Source: Trichobilharzia regenti (Eukaryota; Platyhelminthes; Trematoda; Strigeidida; Schistosomatidae). From it: a DNA stretch of 64,000 nucleotides. Each line of letters starts with the position of its first letter. The first letter of the stretch is position 1. The stretch lies in NCBI GenBank assembly GCA_944472135.2, contig OX235268.1, forward strand, positions 7,756,589-7,820,588. The letters run 5' to 3'. This document shows, one piece after another, positions 5,947 through 45,911 of this stretch. The position numbers and the translations under genes were made by a program. The notes under the pieces are model-generated. The model did no database searches. It saw only the letters and a list, made by a program, of their open reading frames with translations, and was not told the DNA's origin.

Positions 5947-6448
5947 AATTCATGGCCTGACATCAGTTAGAGAAACACTTGAAAATCTGGGAGTACTGTG
6001 CAGTTGTTTCATACTAGTTTGGGACTCTTCTGCGGTACGAACCTACCAACAGGATTTGAAACCAGGACCTTCTGGTTACAAGGCGAGCTCGTAGACCATT
6101 GAGTCAATGGAACCCGATCCAACGGTCGTTGAATTCTATCTTCTGCAAATTCACAACATAGCGCAACCATTTCGCAATGTCTCCTTCGATGAGTTACTGC
6201 CTCATCTTCAACCTACTGTACCCTGCTGGTCACGGCTTCCTACTAGAATCCCAGGTCATTGCATGAGCATCAGATTAATTTTCAAGTATTGGTTTTTTGT
6301 AGGGACTTCTGTTTGATCAAACCAAACTAGGACAAAACTGCTGTCCACTACTCCCAGCTGGTTTTCCAGTCGTTCTCTAATTAATGTCAGCTCACGATGA
6401 AATCCTCCATGCAATCAAACATCAATCCCTACAAAAACAATCCTTGAA
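5947..6448. repeat. SINE family H tail-out inverted dimer with target duplication
   Basis: 5950-6290 is a minus-strand H copy (ribozyme region 5985-6042, tRNA-like B box near 6045-6075). 6330-6440 is the 3' part of a plus-strand copy. The pair is bounded by the direct repeat gataacaata at 5937-5946 and 6449-6458, with further similarity just upstream of each. The minus ribozyme has C3 but a U4 to A change (CAGAAGA). The plus ribozyme is degenerate. Confidence 0.7.
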
Positions 6449-7039: not shown

Positions 7040-7705
7040 CTGCTGGTTATTTCGTGGTGAGAGCTGTCTGCAAGCCAAAATTGTAGAAAACACTTCACGT
7101 CAGTGTTTACCTCCCGAGTCAGGGTCATGAAATAAAACAGCAGCTAAGCTTGACATTGAACATCTCGACAAACAATCACATTAGACTTAATATATGTATA
7201 AAACTTAGGCACTGTGGTGGTAAGTAATTCCATATTAGTTTGTTTATAAACACAGCAGACTTAGCGTGTACAGATACGATTCGTAGCTATATGGCCAAAT
7301 TTTCTAAGAAAAGGTCATAAGCAGTACAGAATAGCCTTCAGCAAGAAAACAACCAATAAATAGAGGTTGTTTCTGTGCTTACAATAACGCTGTTATTATT
7401 ATACGTGCGTTGGTGGCACAGCAGTTAGGACTCTCGCTGACCATGCACATGGTCCGAGGTTCGATACCCTGCCGACGAACACCTGATATCTTTGGTCGGC
7501 CTGCAAAATTTGGGCTACCGATATCCACGCTGAAAATTCCATACTTGTATCAAAGATACAGTGTGGAATCAAGCTGTTATCAAAAATAAAAAATAAAAAT
7601 AACAATGTACATAAAAATCTATAAATATCTCTTGATTCTCTCAAAAGAAATGATCTGTTGCTTGGCCTTTGTCTTCTGTCGTTACAACTTAACAATAAAT
7701 CGTCA
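7040..7705 (+). repeat. Unclassified repeat N, copy 1, interrupted by a T SINE
   Basis: 7040-7390 and 7591-7705 align with 28735-28996 plus 29421-29500 (plus strand) and with 34765-35110 (minus strand). Shared blocks include 'gtacagaatagccttcagc', 'gaaaacaaccaat', 'aaaatctataaatat' and 'ttgtcttctgtcgttacaa'. No coding frame, tRNA boxes or terminal repeats were seen. It may be part of a longer element or of an LTR. Confidence 0.6.
7404..7600 (+). repeat. tRNA-like SINE family T, copy 1
   Basis: An A-box-like stretch (tggcacagcagttaggac) and a B box (ggttcgatacc) are followed by a non-tRNA body (cgaacacctgatatctttgg, then tacagtgtggaatcaagctg) and an A-rich tail (aaaaataaaaaat). Pol III promoter boxes are typical of tRNA-derived SINEs. 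It is inserted in repeat N. Confidence 0.8.
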
Positions 7706-21839: not shown

Positions 21840-23900
21840 GTACCACTTATGGAAACAGTGGACTTTGTATGCGAAGAACTCATAGGATGAAACATCGATG
21901 TTGGCATTCCTATGTCTTTTATGAAAGAGCTCCTCTTAAAATGTACAATGAATGTTAAGGTTTTATTTAATAAGGAACTATATAGACAAAGCGATGATGT
22001 GGCAATAGGGTCACTACTAGGACCCATTGCAGCCGACATTTTCCTTGCGAAACTAGAAAATGGGCCTCTGAAGGATGTTATTAGTGAACTCAAATTTTAT
22101 TGCCGGTACATGGATGATACTTTTTTGATTATGAAAAATAAGAAGGAAGCAAAAAGAATCCTGGATAAATTTAATGAGGTACATCCTGCAATAAATTTTA
22201 CTATTGTGAAAGAAAAAGGCTCTACTATTCCAATTTTAGAGGTCTTTATGACCAGAAAAGAGGATGCCAGAATAACAAGAATTGTTTATAGGAAACCTAC
22301 ATCAACAGGCCAGTACACACATTTTCTCAATTTTGTGCCCTTGAAATACAAACGCAATCTAATAAAGTGCCTGGTTCACAGAGCAAGAACGATTTGTTCG
22401 GACGAATGTTTTGATGAAGAACTGAATAATATTAAACGGTTGCTAAGTGAGAATGGTTATCCTGAAAAGTTTATTTATTAGAATATGAATTTGAAACCAA
22501 AACAGTTCCGAAAAAGGCCTTATTCTCACAAATGCAGTTCCTTGGGGAAAACACTAGCGAGATAATGACGCAATGCCTTAGAAACGCGGCAAAAAGAGAA
22601 TCTCCTTCTGCCGAATTACGCTGTATCGGGAGTAAAAGACAAACTGCCTAATTTCTCCCGATCCATGTGTATCTGTGTGGAGGTCAACAACACTCAGCAA
22701 CAAAAATAAGATCCGGATATTCAACTCCAATGTGAAGTCAGTGCCACTTACCGTATGGAAGAGAAACTTGGCGCGTCATAAAGAGCATCTCAAACAAACT
22801 TCAGACCTTCATTAATAGTTTTCTTCTATCATTACTCGAGATCAGATGGCCAGCCAGAAAAGATCAGCAACAGGGATCTCCGGCAATGAGCGAACCAACT
22901 CAGCAGGAACCGATTGTGAAACAAATAGGCAGTAATAAATGGAGATGGATTGGTCATACTCTGAGGAAACCCTCGAGCGACATCACTAGACAAGCCATTG
23001 CTTGAGTGGAACCCGAAAGGGAAGCGGCGAGTTGGTCGTCAGTGCAAGGTTGACTTGAAAGAGGTCTTGTGAACAGGAGATGAAAGCATATGGGCAGACT
23101 TGGAACAGAGTGGAAAAGTTGGCAGAAAGCCGAAGGCAATGGAGATACGGAGCTGAAGCCCTATGTTTCACTAGGATTTAAAGGATATCATAATAAAAAT
23201 GTGTATCTACCAATTTAACTATTCTTTTGGAGCGAGTCAGTGACATAGGCCGCACAATTAGCCGTGTTTCTCGTCTGATTTCGGAACATCACCCTGCAAA
23301 GTGGTTAAGCAAATTACAAACAAAATATATTCGTAGCGCTATTCTGTCTCATCTTGTGGAGACAGAACACAAGAGTAACGTTAACCAGATGGCTTTCAGG
23401 GTCATTAACCGCACACCTACGAATCTCAATTTTGCCTGAAGATTTTGACTACTAAATATTTTCTGAGGCTGTGGGAATCCACATTAACAAGCCTAACTTA
23501 TGCATCCAAAAAAAGTTGGTTGGTTCAGATATTTTCCTTACCTTGGCCATCCAGGTTTGAATAATCTTCAGTTTTTGTGGAATTTCCCTAATTTTAGTTG
23601 ATATTCTATTTGCTATTATATTTTTATGCTTATTATAATTTAAGCATCTTTAATGAACTGTAATTCCATCGTGACCTTACTTTACAAATCGATATTTAAA
23701 AAAAACACTAATATTTTTGGTGATGACAATTCTAGACTGTTCTATGTATATAAAGATGCATACATAATTATGGAGCCGGAAGAGGAGGATTTTATCGAAA
23801 AGAATATTCTTCGCTCAACTATTTTGTGTTTTATAGATGTCTTCAACGATAAGAAATCTTCAATAAAAGAGGAATCCAAGAGTGACATTATTATTGTGTA
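21840..23900 (+). mobile_element. Penelope-like element family D (RT and GIY-YIG), split by an RTE
   Basis: The frame 21912-22481 encodes 189 residues of PLE reverse transcriptase: LYRQSDDVAIGSLLGPIAAD, catalytic CRYMDDTFLI near 22100-22130, and then TRIVYRKPTSTGQYTHFLNF and LKYKRNLIKCLVHRA. The YMDD box is intact. After a stop, the reading continues to 22664, is interrupted by an RTE insertion (22675-23198), and resumes with the GIY-YIG part at 23199-23439 (CIYQFN, then Asp-Ile-Gly-Arg-Thr for Tyr-Ile-Gly-Arg-Thr, then ILSHLVETEHKSNVNQ). The 3' repeat follows to about 23900 and includes a CUGAUGA/GAAA-like remnant (23771-23810). The N-terminal RT is missing, so it is a broken copy. Confidence 0.85.
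22675..23198 (+). mobile_element. RTE LINE, 5'-truncated, with 10-bp target duplication
   Basis: Begins inside the RTE 3' region (gtgtggaggtcaac) and ends with 'ggatatcataataaaa'. It is flanked by atgtgtatct at 22665-22674 and 23199-23208. Removing it and one repeat rejoins the PLE reading (Cys-Ile-Tyr-Gln-Phe-Asn). It is younger than the PLE copy. Confidence 0.9.
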
Positions 23901-27142: not shown

Positions 27143-28490
27143 GTGCAACTTGAAGTACTTTCCTTCGATTTTGTGACCGATCAAAATGAGTTAATCACTT
27201 GGATACTGATATTGAATTCGAAAACCTATTTAGTCAAACAAGGCATCCATCCATCATCCCCCTTGGAACTAGAACGCTTCAAATACAGTCTAGTGGATTG
27301 TTGTTATCAGTACAAAAACCTCAAATGCGACAGTAAACGTTTTTTGATAAAGGAGCACAGAGAAGAACTAAAAAAACTGATTAATGATGAGAGACTGGCA
27401 ATCACAAAGCCGGATTAAGGATCAGGAGTAGTCCTCCTTGATAAAAGTGACTATATTAACAGGATGAATGATATATTGAAGGACACAGAGGAGTTTCAAA
27501 AGCTTCAGGAGAAGAAAGACTTCAATAACAAAATAGAGAATGAACTAACCAGACGTTTGAAGAAACTAGGGGACTAAGGGTCGAGAAATCAGACCGACGG
27601 GCCCGTATACGCCAAGATTGTATGGCCTACCTAAAGTGCATAAACCAGGGGTACCGTTAAGATCAATACTTGATATGCAAAATTTGCCCTACCATGCTCT
27701 AGTTAGATGGTTAGTAAATATTCCCGAACCTTTGCATGATATAGCAATATAGCGTCAAAGATGTATTTCAATTAGTAGACAAAATGAAAGATATTAATAT
27801 TAAGAACAAAACCATGATATTTCGGGTCATAACATTATTATACACATATGTAGCTCTCAAAGAAACGGTTAACTACGTATGTGAACAATTGGACAAGCAG
27901 TCGATAAACATCGGTATCCATACTGAAATCTTGAAAGAATTGATATTAAGATGTACCATGAATGTAGACTTCAAATTTAACGGCACGCTTTACAAGCAAG
28001 TGGACAGAGTGTCTATGGGCTCCCCATTTTGTCCCATTCAGGCTGATTTCTTTCTTAGTAGGCTAGATAGTGGACCTCTGAACAACCTTATCAGCAAGCT
28101 CTCATTTTATTACCGATATATGGATGACACCTTCATCCTTTGTGATAATGGTTCTGATAAGAGTACAATAATTACTGAATTCAATGAAGTACATTCGGCT
28201 TTAAAATACACATCTGAAGAGGAATCACAAGAGAGAATTGCCTTCCTGGATGTCCTACTTACAAGAAAACCACCAGATGGTAGCATAAAAAGAAATTTGC
28301 GTAGAAAAAGTACTTGGACAGGACGATATACACATTTTGACAGCTTCGTTTCTATCAAGTACAAAAGAAATTTAGTGAATACCCTCAGCCACAGAGTTAG
28401 TGCTATATGCTCAAAAGAAGTAATTGAAGGTGAATTAAGCGTTGTATATGATTTTTTAATATGTACAGGTTCTTTAAGTTAACCATTGTG
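27143..28490 (+). mobile_element. Penelope-like element family D-related, RT core
   Basis: 27143-27418 encodes an N-terminal PLE segment. After a stop, 27420-27560 continues (VVLLDKSDYINRMNDIL), 27600-27740 carries the conserved LYGLPKVHKPGVPLRSIL, and the frame 27784-28482 gives 232 residues including LYKQVDRVSMGSPF, catalytic YRYMDDTFIL (28110-28140) and IAFLDVLLTRKP. YMDD is intact. Several stops and shifts separate the pieces. The element ends before GIY-YIG. A related 3' half lies at 39.4-40.5 kb. Confidence 0.85.
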
Positions 28491-29084
28491 TGAAGTAATT
28501 CAAGGAACTGGAGTATTTTCTCTGGTTTACAGAACTTTTAGGTGTATGGATAGTTGACTGCATCGGAATGCACTCGAGACTGATAAGTTCATGATGTATA
28601 GACTGAATTTCATTAAGAGGTGAATATCACTCGGAGTGGTTCCTTGGAAACTTCATTTATCTTGGCTCAGGCTAACACAAGTTTCAATCTCCACAGAAAT
28701 TGCAGATACAAGTTATTGAATACGCAGTTCGTGATAGTGTGGTGAGAACTGGCTGCTAGTCAAAATTGGTGGACGGTAATTTACGTCAATGTTTATGTCC
28801 ATGATATTGGTCGTGAGAAAAGTGAGAACAAAGGCTTTGCATAGGCGGATACAGTTAACATATAGGTGATCTGACATTCAAGAAACAGCCACAAAGAGAT
28901 GAAAGAATAACTTTATGTGAGAAACAACCAATCAGAAGACTGTGTTTATTTGCGTAAATAAACCATAATAATGTACATAAAAATCTATAAATATGTATTT
29001 AAGTGTTGGTTTGTAAGGATTTGCTTGGTTTCAGGGTTTCATCATGAGCTGACATTAGTTAGAGAACCGTTGGAAAACCTGAGA

Positions 29085-29130
29085 TTACTGGACAGCTGTT
29101 TCGTCTTAGTTTGAGACTCTTCAGCAGTAC
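29085..29130 (-). ncRNA. Hammerhead ribozyme, canonical core
   Basis: Minus strand, 5' to 3': stem I GUACUG, core CUGAAGA, stem II GUCU / loop CAAACUA / AGAC, core GAAA, short stem III AC-AGCU-GU, then C17, then CAGUAA. Every invariant core position (C3, U4, G5, A6, G8, A9, G12, A13, A14, C17) is present. Stem II differs from the family GUCC/GGAC by a compensating pair change. Stem I has five pairs closing at the core. Predicted self-cleavage is between 29091 and 29090. This type of ribozyme is known from Sm-alpha SINEs of schistosomes, where it processes the RNA transcript. Confidence 0.85.
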
Positions 29131-29324
29131 GCGAGCTCCAGGATTCGGACAGCGGGTCGGGTGTGAGGACAAATACTCGCTGAAGACATTGGCTAGCGGT
29201 CATGCTATGTCGTGAACTGGCAGAAGTTAGAATTCTAGGACGATTGGATCGGGTCCCAGTGGCCTAATTGTATACGAGCTCGCCTTCTAACCAGAAGGTC
29301 CTGGGTTCGAGTCTCGGTGGGCGC

Positions 29325-29370
29325 GTACTACTGAAGAGTCCCAACCTAGGACGAAACAGCTGTCCAGTAC
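29325..29370 (+). ncRNA. Hammerhead ribozyme, intact core with one stem I mismatch
   Basis: GUACUA (29325-29330), CUGAAGA (29331-29337), stem II GUCC / CAACCUA / GGAC (29338-29352), GAAA (29353-29356), stem III AC-AGCU-GU, C17 at 29364, then CAGUAC. All core residues fit the consensus. The pair next to the core in stem I is A·C, which could lower activity. Predicted cleavage follows 29364. Confidence 0.75.
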
Positions 29371-29957
29371 TCCCAGGTTTTCCAGTTGTTCTCTAACTGA
29401 TGTCAGCTCATGATGAAATCCTATAAATATGTGTTGATTGGCTTAATAAACGATATGTTGCCTGGCCCTTGTCTTCTGTTGTTACAATAGTTTATTGACC
29501 TATAGCGTAGCAAACTGAGCGGAACATACCGCAGCAACGGTAGATCGATATTGTGCTGTAATACCCGTTCTCTTACCAAAAATCGCTGGCTCTCGTTCAC
29601 ATCATTCTCGGAGGCTCAATACGTTGCCTCCAACAATGCAACAAACTGAATGAAAGTATTACTATAAATGGCTGCAATTTACTGAAGGTCATTTGATTTC
29701 AGAGCATAGTCTCTGACTGATTAATAGAAGACAATACAAGCGTTACTCAGTGATTACTGTGATTCATTTTACCAAGCTACATAATACGTCAGGGAAATTT
29801 CGCTATACATCAATCAAAACAGTCAAACGATATTTTTGATTCCTCTACCACTTTGGTGGAAAGTGATGGAATAAAAATCCAAGGATCTGGTGCTTGCAAA
29901 TATATTTTGAATGTTTTAAATATTAAAAAAAAATGTAAAAACAACAAATCAACTTAC

Positions 29958-34764: not shown

Positions 34765-35110
34765 AGTACTATTAAATAGTTGTAACGACTAAAGCAAAGG
34801 GTCGGGCAACAGATTAATTATTGAGAAACTCAAGAGATATCTGTAGATTTCTATGTATAATATTGTCAGTGGAGAAGCAACGCCTTTTGATTGGTTGTTT
34901 TCACGCTGAAGGTTATTCTGTACTGCGTGTGGCCATTTCTCAGAAAGTTAAGCCATATATCTGTAAATTGTTTGCACTGGTTCCATCTTCTGTGATTGGT
35001 TGTTGAGTTCTTCATGGTTAAGATTTGCAATTGTTTTCTCATGATTTCAGAAATACCAATGACGTAAATTCCTGTCTACAAATCTGTCTTGCAGCCAGCT
35101 CTCGCAACAT
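34765..35110 (-). repeat. Unclassified repeat N, copy 3, uninterrupted
   Basis: The reverse complement of this stretch aligns along its length with repeat N copies 1 and 2 without the SINE insertions, and so serves as the empty-site reference for both. Confidence 0.6.
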
Positions 35111-40470: not shown

Positions 40471-40869
40471 GTCACTGTCATTACAATTATCATGAAATTA
40501 TATCGGCCGAAACAAGTCTTTTTCACATCTGCAGCCGACATTAATAGTCTCATATATAATAATAATAATAATAGCTTCATTCTACATATTATTTACACAA
40601 TATACACAATTTAAAGTGTCATTTATTGAGTAGTTTTTTCCCTTCATCCTGATGTTTCAAGTAAAATAGCCATCTCAAGTGAACTGTGGGATGTAATGCT
40701 ATTCTATCTGAAGAATCCTTTATGGTATTTTTCTCTGACCTGCCATAAATGAGCGATGATAGATTGCAAACCAATTAAAAATGTGCATGATTACAATTGG
40801 CAGCCAACAAACATAACTGAATGGTTATTGCGTCAGTATTCAAATACTGGATTGTAGGGATTCGATTGA
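40471..40869. other. Intron sequence with a short (AAT)n
   Basis: An (AAT)n tract at 40555-40573. Nothing else. Confidence 0.4.
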
Positions 40870-41320
40870 TTTGTTACAGATTGTCATCATGAGCTGATAT
40901 CGGTTAGCAAACTATTGAAAAATCAGCAGTGCATACTGGACAGCTATTTCATCCCATTTCTATGGGACTCTTCATCAGTGCACATCCGCTTCCAGGGTTC
41001 GAAACCAGGACCCTTTGGTTTCAAAGTGATATCGTATACAATTGAGCTCGACTTCTGTCAATTCACAACATAGCGGGACCGCTAGATAATGTCTTCGGCG
41101 AATATTTGTCCTCACGCCCTACCTACCGTATCCTACTGGTCATGACTTCCCACTAGAACCTCAAGTAACTATCTACCTGAATATGACTAGTTACTAGTGA
41201 GCATTTCATTGATATCCAGGTACTGTTGAATAGTCCTTTACTAGGATGACACAAGTGTGCAGTACTCGCTGATGCTTTCCAATGGTTCTCCAACCGATAT
41301 AAGGTCACGACGAAATCATA
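40870..41320. repeat. SINE family H tail-out inverted dimer
   Basis: 40875-41222 is an almost full minus-strand H copy (B box complement near 41000, ribozyme 40950-41008). 41225-41318 is the 3' part of a plus copy. The minus ribozyme reads GCACUG, AUGAAGA, GUCC..., GAAAU, AGCUGUC, so it carries A instead of C at core position 3. Confidence 0.65.
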
Positions 41321-42494: not shown

Positions 42495-42940
42495 TTGGTT
42501 AATTACAATTTCACCGTCAAAATGAAGAAGAATCCAGAAAAGTTCATCAAGAAACGCATGACCAAGAAAGCAGTCGAGAACTATTCTCTATCTGTAAATA
42601 AGAAGCCATTATATAGACGACTGCAGTTCAGAGGTGACTTATCTAGTGAAATAATTCAGAGCAAGTCAGGAAAATCTATTCAAAGAAGTCATTATGCTGG
42701 TAAACTGCAAGACATATTTTATGCACGACCGAGGTTAATTTCTCTATTGAAAGATGAAGTAGGTAGACTAGCTACCTCTTCTTGAACCTACCGATTTAAC
42801 TGCGCTTGTGGGGCGAGGTAAATTGGCCGTTTTTATGAGAACTTAATTTTTCATGCTCGCTCAGGAACACCTAGAAATGTGGCCTGATCAATGTGTGGTA
42901 AAAAAACATGAACAGTTTGATATCATAATTTAAATGGTGT
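42495..42940 (+). mobile_element. Penelope-like element fragment (RT end to GIY-YIG start)
   Basis: 42535-42785 encodes PEKFIKKRMTKKAVENYSLS and ARPRLISLLKDEVGRLATSS, the connector that follows RT in this family. A stop and a frame change lead into RFNCACGAR, the beginning of GIY-YIG. It is cut by the Sm-alpha pair. Confidence 0.7.
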
Positions 42941-42954
42941 ATGGTGACTAGCAG

Positions 42955-43010
42955 TGGAATCCAGGATGTGCATTTAGTCCTATTTGGGACTACTCGTCAG
43001 CTGGATGTAC
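42955..43010 (-). ncRNA. Hammerhead ribozyme of Sm-alpha, one core mutation
   Basis: Minus strand: stem I AUCCAG with CUGGAU (six pairs), core CUGACGA intact, stem II AGUCC / GGACU, but position 12 reads U (42976) where GAAA requires G. The G12 change is expected to abolish cleavage. Confidence 0.75.
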
Positions 43011-43263
43011 CTGCATTTCCCAGTGAGTGATGATGTTCCCACCGAGGCTCGAACCCCGTGCCAATAGTTTCAAACGCCAAAGCGTTATCCACCAGACCAC
43101 TTGGGCCATGAGAGCCACCTTTTGTGCAACGGGTTATATTAATTATTTAATTGAATTTTAGATTTTCCCGTTGAGTGAATGGACCGAAGTGCTGGGTCTC
43201 AGGTTGACATGTCGGCTTTGAGCCTCGTTGGGAACATCATCACTCACTGGGGAATGCAGGCAC

Positions 43264-43309
43264 ATCTGTATGACGAGTCCCAGACAGGACGAAATGCGCA
43301 TCCTGGATT
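43264..43309 (+). ncRNA. Hammerhead ribozyme of Sm-alpha, mutated at C3 and stem I
   Basis: UGACGA (43271-43276) is preceded by A instead of C3 (43270). Stem II GUCC / CAGACA / GGAC, GAAA (43291-43294), stem III AU-GCGC-AU and C17 (43302) are intact. The stem I 5' strand is degraded (ucugu). Probably inactive. Confidence 0.7.
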
Positions 43310-43669
43310 CCACTGCTAGTCACCATACACCAATTAAATTCTAATTATATACCGAGACATCGTCGAAGCATCTGCACAAGAAGTCAATTTGTCAACCTGA
43401 ACCTGAGCACTAAAATCTAAAATTCAGGTAAATTGTCCGTTATTAGACCACCTAGGGCAGAACGGCCATGAACGCACATGAATTCCAACACCAATAAACC
43501 CATTTTTTCCCTATGCCCATCCTTCACGTGATCCCTCATCCATCTGAAGTTTAAAATCAATATGAATGCAACTAAATATGTGCACGACGCATGAGAATTT
43601 ATTACCATAAATTTGTTGTCATTCATAATTATTTATTTTGTGATATTAGGTATTATAACAAACCCATCT

Positions 43670-44900: not shown

Positions 44901-44947
44901 ACAAATCAAAACTAAAAACCCTTCAAATCAAGTCTTGTGAATATTTT

Positions 44948-45460
44948 GTTACAGGATTTCATCATGAGCTGACATTGGTTCAAGAACCATTGGAAAACCT
45001 GGCAGAACTGAACAGCTGTTTCGTCCTAGTTTAGGACTTTTCAGTAGTACGCAGCCACCGGGATTCGAACCCAGGACATTCTGATTACAAGGCGAGCTCG
45101 TACACCATTTAGCCACTGGGACCCAATCCAACCGCCCAGAAATTCTAACTTCTGCCATTTCAAGACATACCGCGACCCCTAGCCAACGTCTTCGGCGAGT
45201 GTTTCTCCTCGCACCCGACCTGCTGCACCCTACTGGTCACGTCTTCTAACCAGAACCGTAGGTAGCTACCTATATGAATAGGGCCTTTGGATCGGGTCCC
45301 AGTGACTTAGTGGTCTCCGAGCTCGCCTTGTAACCAGAAGGCCCTGGGTTCAAATCCCATAGTGTGGGTGCGTTCTGATGAAGAGTCCCAAAATAGGACG
45401 AAGCAGCTGTCTGGCAAAACTTCCAGGTTTTCCAATGGTTCCCTCCTGTAAGCAATCAAT
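44948..45460. repeat. SINE family H tail-out inverted dimer
   Basis: 44950-45260 is a minus copy and 45265-45455 a plus copy. Minus ribozyme: GUACUA, CUGAAAA (G8 changed), stem II GUCC/GGAC intact, C17 to U. Plus ribozyme: A at position 3. The minus copy includes a clear B box complement (ccgggattcgaacccagg). Confidence 0.7.
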
Positions 45461-45911
45461 CAAAGCCCTACAAACCAACACTTCAATAACTTGTAAATAT
45501 TCTTTGTTCAGTAATCAATCTTTAGGAAAACAACTCCCACAAACTTTTTAAATTTAGCTGACCCTATTACACACCTCAGTAATAAAATGCCAATAATCAC
45601 TGGATTTTGAAAGTTCAGTCGTCTAAACCTATCTCGGCTGGGTGTATGTGTCCATTTGTTCTAAAATTGATAAATCAAATTTATAACATATAGTTTTTAA
45701 AAAGAATTAGGTTAGATTTATACGAACTGTGGTTGAGAGTTGACCGAATACTTCCACAGACATTTGACGCAGGGTGAAGAGAATACATTTGTAATACTTA
45801 TATATATATATATATAAGGTTAGATTTTGAACTTAAAAAAACATGTCATAACATACACTAATTGAAAAATAAGCTTTCAATTGACATTTAACAGGCAAAT
45901 AAACGTCTTAC
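45461..45911. other. Intron sequence with (TA)n
   Basis: A TA microsatellite at 45799-45817. Otherwise nothing. Confidence 0.4.

Follow-up and report, generated by a model that had tools for sequence, protein, structure and literature searches.

In a 64-kb stretch of the Trichobilharzia regenti genome (C7:7756589-7820588, hereafter the window), the 424 bp at 28997-29420 consist of two outward-facing copies of the hammerhead SINE family H enclosed by exact 12-bp repeats, and this insert is probably the product of two-sided target-primed reverse transcription, in which the machinery of Penelope-like elements (PLEs) would have acted on hammerhead SINE RNA. In this genome, H and a second SINE family, A, have often been inserted as two head-to-head arms inside a target-site duplication, mostly of 12-14 bp. 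The reading builds on this anatomy, on the end sites and duplications, on arms that are mutually exclusive in part of the pairs, on variants shared between arms, and on a like anatomy in a few PLE pairs. For A and H, the sample comprised one genome, represented by the window and 54 further stretches (L001-L054), some of them selected as pairs and a few, among those placed on a grid, containing no A or H copy. The features of the window are listed in Table 1.

Table 1. Features of the 64-kb window, with positions counted from its first nucleotide. S, short end site; L, long end site.
Feature	Position	Strand	Basis or score
Left target-site duplication, CTATAAATATGT	28985..28996	.	Direct reading and duplication scoring
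L arm: H copy, unit positions ~335 to 97, terminating at the L site	28997..29150	-	
Type I hammerhead motif, stem II GUCU/AGAC	29085..29130	-	Rfam RF00163, 42.6 bits
S arm: H copy, unit positions 180 to 59, terminating at the S site	29150..29420	+	
tRNA-like stretch with A-box- and B-box-like motifs	29240..29322	+	By eye and alignment of 9 copies
Type I hammerhead motif, one A.C mismatch in stem I	29325..29370	+	Rfam RF00163, 49.0 bits
Right target-site duplication, CTATAAATATGT	29421..29432	.	Direct reading and duplication scoring
Empty site: host repeat without insertion	7591..7687	+	84% match to joined flanks
Second empty site: host repeat without insertion	34780..34864	-	74% match to joined flanks
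Fragment of a PLE reverse transcriptase closely preceding the insertion; candidate class of autonomous partner	27745..28482	+	
PLE reverse transcriptase fragment, query for relatives	21891..22481	+	
H pair, S left, L right, duplication GATAACAATA	5950..6448	.	
Older H pair, L left, S right, no clear duplication remaining	40836..41317	.	
Family A tail-out pair with two hammerheads	42932..43411	.	49.5 and 52.2 bits
Second H pair, S left, L right, duplication CTTGTGAATATT / CTTGTAAATATT	44945..45488	.	

An earlier, sequence-only reading had described the insert as a dimer inserted as one unit, with the same repeat directly outside both ends and the unfilled site visible in two other copies of the host repeat, and all of this was borne out. 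The two copies of CTATAAATATGT are identical at 12 of 12 positions, and a score of at least 12 was reached by only 1 of 600 mismatched flank pairs. Both host-repeat matches (7591-7687, and 34864-34780 on the opposite strand) run across the junction of the joined flanks. With a single outer duplication, empty sites that span the junction, and two oppositely oriented H copies, the insert is one insertion unit. The inverted arms are 85% complementary over 118 nt (29033-29150 and 29305-29422), and the S arm extends 155 nt farther upstream than the L arm, the 5' end of which is truncated within the B-box-like stretch. The entire tRNA-like stretch is present in the plus arm only, the minus arm being cut off within it. 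The box-like motifs of this tRNA-like head of H were recognized by eye in aligned copies, while ARAGORN called no tRNA in the stretch on the plus strand.

Families H and A have the same layout of a tRNA-like stretch, a hammerhead, and a 3' part, with units of 394 nt (H, cut from L033) and 329 nt (A); we take family A to resemble Sm-alpha. When the units were numbered as circles from the ribozyme cleavage site, most end positions formed two tight clusters in each family. The arms of A (n = 58) end at 28-49 (S) or 153-161 (L), and those of H (n = 76) at about 50-74 (S) or 84-105 (L), apart from a minority of arms in each family; S and L are about 115 nt apart in A and about 37 nt apart in H. In circular folds of the two unit sequences, S and L were predicted to be less paired than average in both, a prediction from just these two sequences to which we give no weight as evidence. 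The 5' ends of family A arms cluster at unit positions 230-244, just before or in the B-box-like stretch (L001, L002, L004, L006, L007, L008, and window 43214). Altogether, 20 of the 134 arms exceed one unit (7/58 for A, 13/76 for H). In addition, H forms a tandem array at C7:8640241-8642542 with six scored units at a spacing of about 397 bp and one hammerhead in each, a possible source of multimeric RNA. Because arms exceed one unit and this array exists, we take the template RNA to have been multimeric or circular. The array and the over-unit arms also give H and A the retrozyme-like organization of tandem units with one hammerhead each.

For family A, loci were taken irrespective of pairing, and 12 of the top 18 hammerhead-scored loci (L001-L008 and L037-L046) are tail-out pairs, or 11 of 16 without two duplicate loci. 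Five of 11 H loci sampled by BLAST rank (L034-L036 and L047-L054) are pairs; the series passes over ranks 8, 9, and 15, while ranks 6 and 11 had already been fetched as pairs. The loci L009-L013 and L029-L033, selected for a second hit, lie outside these fractions and inside the later tests. In 15 grid-placed 10-kb stretches with 23 arms, all seven cases in which neighbours of the same family are separated by less than 100 bp show a head-to-head orientation. When the four sets were combined, there were 34 head-to-head, 4 tail-to-tail, and 2 same-strand neighbours; these numbers, like the counts of arm ends, include the duplicates L037/L038 and L042/L043. Identical arm lengths and inner junctions were found among the tabulated pairs only for L037/L038, apparently one duplicated locus. 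The window itself contains further pairs, including one (5950-6448) with an extra minus-strand H tail between its arms at 6270-6320, as judged by eye, and the A pair, which has an S site at its left end, an unclassified right end, and no clear duplication.

The two ends of a classifiable pair nearly always combine one S and one L site. We tabulated 45 pairs, of which 34 had both ends inside the S and L limits, which were chosen after the first loci had been seen, and 33 remained after L038 was left out, which looks like a segmental duplicate of L037. In 31 of these 33 pairs S is combined with L, compared with 16.5 expected if the sides were independent (P 6.5e-8). In these 31 pairs, an optional 3' tail between two start sites is present at one end only, a feature of PLE insertions, as is the enclosure of head-to-head arms by one short target duplication, which is also seen here. 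A duplication score of at least 9 was obtained for 26 of the 31 S/L pairs, versus 11 of 600 mismatched flank pairs, and in 21 of these 26 the duplication is 12-14 bp long; the pairs with lower scores are L014, L026, L037, L039, and window 40836. The remaining 11 of the 45 pairs were unclassifiable, with an end beyond the limits, and most of them are old or diverged. One of these 11, however, is a young H pair (L022:1399-1588, 94-97% identity), the left arm of which is an internal piece (unit positions 194-301) without a tail; this pair departs from the S/L rule. There were two exceptions among the classifiable pairs. Both ends of L008 are S, and its duplication is only weak, whereas L048 is L/L by the mechanical rule, yet carries a 37-nt S piece outermost. 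At L048:324-793, the arm passes from these 37 nt of the S site to an L site in another unit, as if the reverse transcriptase had jumped between templates.

Arms without a partner were also observed, either with a duplication (L035, L044, L046, L047, and L049) or without one (L003, L042/L043, L053, and L054). Therefore, extension of the second side either does not always occur or does not always leave a visible arm. By eye, short hidden partners were recognized in L006 (about 12 nt of L), L028 (29 nt of L), and perhaps L016 (7 nt of S). At L034:850-930 (C1:76260949-76261029), an H insertion within the duplication AAATGAAAGAGAGTGTTA combines an L arm with about 55 nt of unrelated filler at its opposite side, as read by eye; the template for that side may have been a different RNA.

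The units of H and A are too short to encode a reverse transcriptase with a GIY-YIG endonuclease, and they can therefore be at most non-autonomous partners of PLEs. A search with a PLE reverse transcriptase from the window matched 11 proteins, with relatives in Trichobilharzia and Schistosoma; the match with the best E-value is from Schistosoma rodhaini (54% identity over 99% of the query), and Trichobilharzia proteins gave the highest identity values (67-85%, covering 38-62% of the query). The PLE loci L055-L062 were chosen as pairs, and the five pairs inspected are head to head with arms about 99% alike. The 1.6-kb arms of L055 are 99% complementary and flanked by a 12-bp duplication, with one end longer by about 60 nt. 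The pairs L057/58, L059/60, and L061/62 each have one longer and one shorter end, with no duplication at a threshold of 10; imperfect ones nearer to the ends score 9, 9, and 8, a score of 8 being reached by 10 of 500 random pairs. The same ends as in the SINEs are thus seen in PLEs of the same genome at L055 and L057-L062, all of them chosen as pairs, with L056 set apart as nested. In L056:990-5346, a head-to-head PLE pair has unequal ends, a 13-bp duplication, and a shared 140-bp sequence on both flanks, the result of a nested insertion or of template switches. An Rfam search of the PLE pairs L055 and L056 gave no hammerhead at E 1 or below. At C5:10360842-10371885, a PLE tandem array (spacing 2948) is preceded by an inverted PLE copy.

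Two-sided priming could in principle also be the work of a LINE enzyme, as in the twin priming of LINE-1, in which each of the two cut strands primes a cDNA on RNA. If the template is one linear RNA, the arms formed in this way do not overlap. LINE reverse transcriptases are abundant in this genome; nevertheless, we consider this alternative unlikely, since the arms overlap in linear coordinates in 29 of the 31 S/L pairs and since opposite-strand neighbours differ between the two classes of elements. Within 5 kb, and judged by eye among 150 scored of 54,236 PLE candidates, there are 6 head-to-head and no tail-to-tail neighbours, whereas the LINE control (by eye, 150 scored of 46,690 candidates) contains no head-to-head and one tail-to-tail case. 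Moreover, an optional 3' tail together with head-to-head ends matches the PLE pairs of this genome as well as what PMC3846280 and PMC11167929 describe for PLEs.

Self-priming, or snap-back, in which a strand, once copied, folds back and becomes its own template, would also give head-to-head pairs with variants common to both arms, and for the inverted repeats of PLEs, Arkhipova et al. 2013 (PMC3846280) proposed self-priming on an antisense template. By content, this mechanism is compatible with 19 of the 31 S/L pairs, those in which the arms are not mutually exclusive. However, snap-back requires that one arm be contained in the other, and in 12 of the 31 pairs each arm has at least 10 unit positions that are absent from the other (15 of 31 if counted by linear reach, 12 being the stricter circular count). 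Among these 12, the pair at 28997-29420 has 155 unique unit positions in its S arm and 38 in its L arm, and the arms of L040 do not overlap at all. Since each arm holds sequence absent from the other, neither copied the other in these 12 pairs, and the simplest reading is two separate priming events on RNA. Mutually exclusive SINE arms thus speak against self-priming, which was rejected for these 12 pairs. In its simple form, snap-back would also have both arms end at the same site, whereas 31 of 33 pairs use two different sites. As an account of the H and A pairs, it appears quite improbable.

Rare variants connect the two arms of a pair. In 31 pairs (18 A and 13 H; L038, L043, and pairs with a weaker arm of at most 84% identity were left out), the right arm repeated a rare variant of the left arm in 9 of 45 cases for A and 8 of 54 for H, compared with 12 of 964 and 7 of 705, respectively, between arms of different insertions. 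Sharing within pairs is therefore about 15-fold more frequent (pooled Fisher P 6e-8 and 2e-6, with sites that are not independent of each other). One RNA molecule, or RNAs from one source locus, would both do as an explanation. There is no evidence for ribozyme-cleaved RNA as the template: counted by hand, the distance from the 5' end to the cleavage site is at most 3 nt in 3 of 62 arms, with about 1.3 expected. We claim no role for cleavage because there is no clear excess of 5' ends at the cleavage site and because the hammerhead of a PLE was dispensable for insertion in vitro, according to PMC11167929.

In the two-sided reaction that we favour, an endonuclease would cut both target strands with a stagger of mostly 12-14 nt, and on SINE RNA a separate cDNA would be primed by the 3' end of each cut strand, at S on one side and at L on the other. 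Both cDNAs would proceed upstream across the hammerhead and then the tRNA-like part of a multimeric or circular template, halt at variable points, and be joined head to head in the middle of the insert, while fill-in of the stagger would produce the target-site duplication. We infer the PLE enzyme as the agent, a single RNA molecule for both arms, the order of the steps, and the joining. For a purified PLE, PMC11167929 describes that it cuts and extends both target strands, starting at two internal RNA sites, and that the 30-40-bp "tail" is the stretch between these two start sites; the later steps of insertion are called "yet to be validated" there. A more specific version is possible, but we hold it only tentatively: a dimeric PLE enzyme may grip one, possibly circular, SINE RNA at S and L and start both cDNAs simultaneously, and hammerhead SINEs would therefore often be born as palindromes.

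The sequence-only reading had instead suggested a functional dimer, the foldback transcript of which could self-cleave whichever strand is transcribed. Each H copy of the insert does carry a putative hammerhead that is nearly intact by sequence, so that there is one such motif per strand. In a covariance-model check run on both arms, both exceeded the gathering score of RF00163 (34), and the Rfam alignments agreed with the earlier claims of a compensating stem II change in the minus arm (against GUCC/GGAC in the plus arm) and of one stem I mismatch in the plus arm, which was read by eye. However, the full transcripts of either strand were predicted to form a single extended hairpin (-228 and -209 kcal/mol, z about -15 and -16) in which the ribozyme is paired with the antisense arm. 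Such a hairpin would favour double-stranded RNA over an active ribozyme, and the self-cleaving foldback transcript was rejected on the predicted folding of both full-length strands. Furthermore, only one arm has kept the whole promoter-like stretch, and no dimer lineage was seen in the sample. Because two SINE families of this genome frequently insert as pairs of this kind, with arm lengths and inner junctions that vary, the dimer as a functional unit of its own is not supported, and we regard it as very improbable. The weakest alternative, two independent SINE insertions side by side, is hardly credible: SINEs do insert beside each other's tails, and L042/L043 resemble that, tail to tail, but the pair as a whole is enclosed by a single outer duplication, nothing interrupts the empty site, head-to-head neighbours outnumber the others (34 versus 4 and 2), and the arms have rare variants in common.

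The Rfam search detected seven hammerheads above threshold in the window, and a first look at the genome (954 Mb) gave 304,034 type I candidates, of which 74 were scored. High hammerhead numbers are also described for Schistosoma (PMC2770079). H and A resemble the Sm-alpha/Sj-alpha SINEs of Schistosoma treated there, which are tRNA-derived, carry a hammerhead, and reach very high copy numbers, although the two-arm anatomy with S and L ends is not mentioned in the description cited from that source. With the metazoan non-LTR retrozymes, as characterized in PMC7229834, they share a type I hammerhead, units of about 300 nt, a tandem arrangement, and the lack of coding capacity; unlike these, they are dispersed head-to-head insertions with a tRNA-like stretch. 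PLEs are named "a strong candidate" for mobilising retrozymes in the same paper.

The closest parallel is with endonuclease-bearing PLEs (Penelope/Poseidon), for which PMC3846280 and PMC11167929 describe head-to-head inverted termini in a short target duplication, an optional tail of about 30-40 nt on one inverted end, tandem copies, and a hammerhead located close to the start sites. Elements of this class in which the pLTRs are inverted, one of them bears a tail, and the duplication is short had already been described in PMC3846280. Unlike PLEs, the H and A SINEs encode no protein, are only 394 and 329 nt long, and carry a tRNA-like stretch; the start sites of A are about 115 nt apart, and the duplications given for rotifer PLEs are 8-10 bp. 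In addition, the start site did not differ between the strands in the experiments with the purified PLE as reported in PMC11167929, whereas the two sides of H and A insertions differ, one being S and the other L.

With LINE-1 twin priming, the SINE insertions have in common that both cut strands prime cDNA on RNA; in contrast to the non-overlapping arms of twin priming, however, H and A arms usually overlap and start at two fixed sites. As far as searches of the open-licence literature show, the original Sm-alpha and Sj-alpha papers excluded, the PLE signature in large number and a different start site on each side are new for hammerhead SINEs, and so is the use of mutually exclusive arms as an argument against self-priming.

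With these insertions, the enzyme that moves hammerhead SINEs and retrozymes becomes testable from genome sequence, and so does the way in which PLEs form their head-to-head inverted ends. Many insertions with two fixed start sites constitute a statistical record that includes a rule, one S and one L, not seen in vitro. Two-sided insertion also explains why many hammerhead loci in this genome are located in inverted repeats that are able to form double-stranded RNA. If the reading with a dimeric PLE enzyme is true, the genomic copies would be an in vivo record of two-sided reverse transcription, and both the mover of retrozymes and the origin of the inverted ends of PLEs would be settled.
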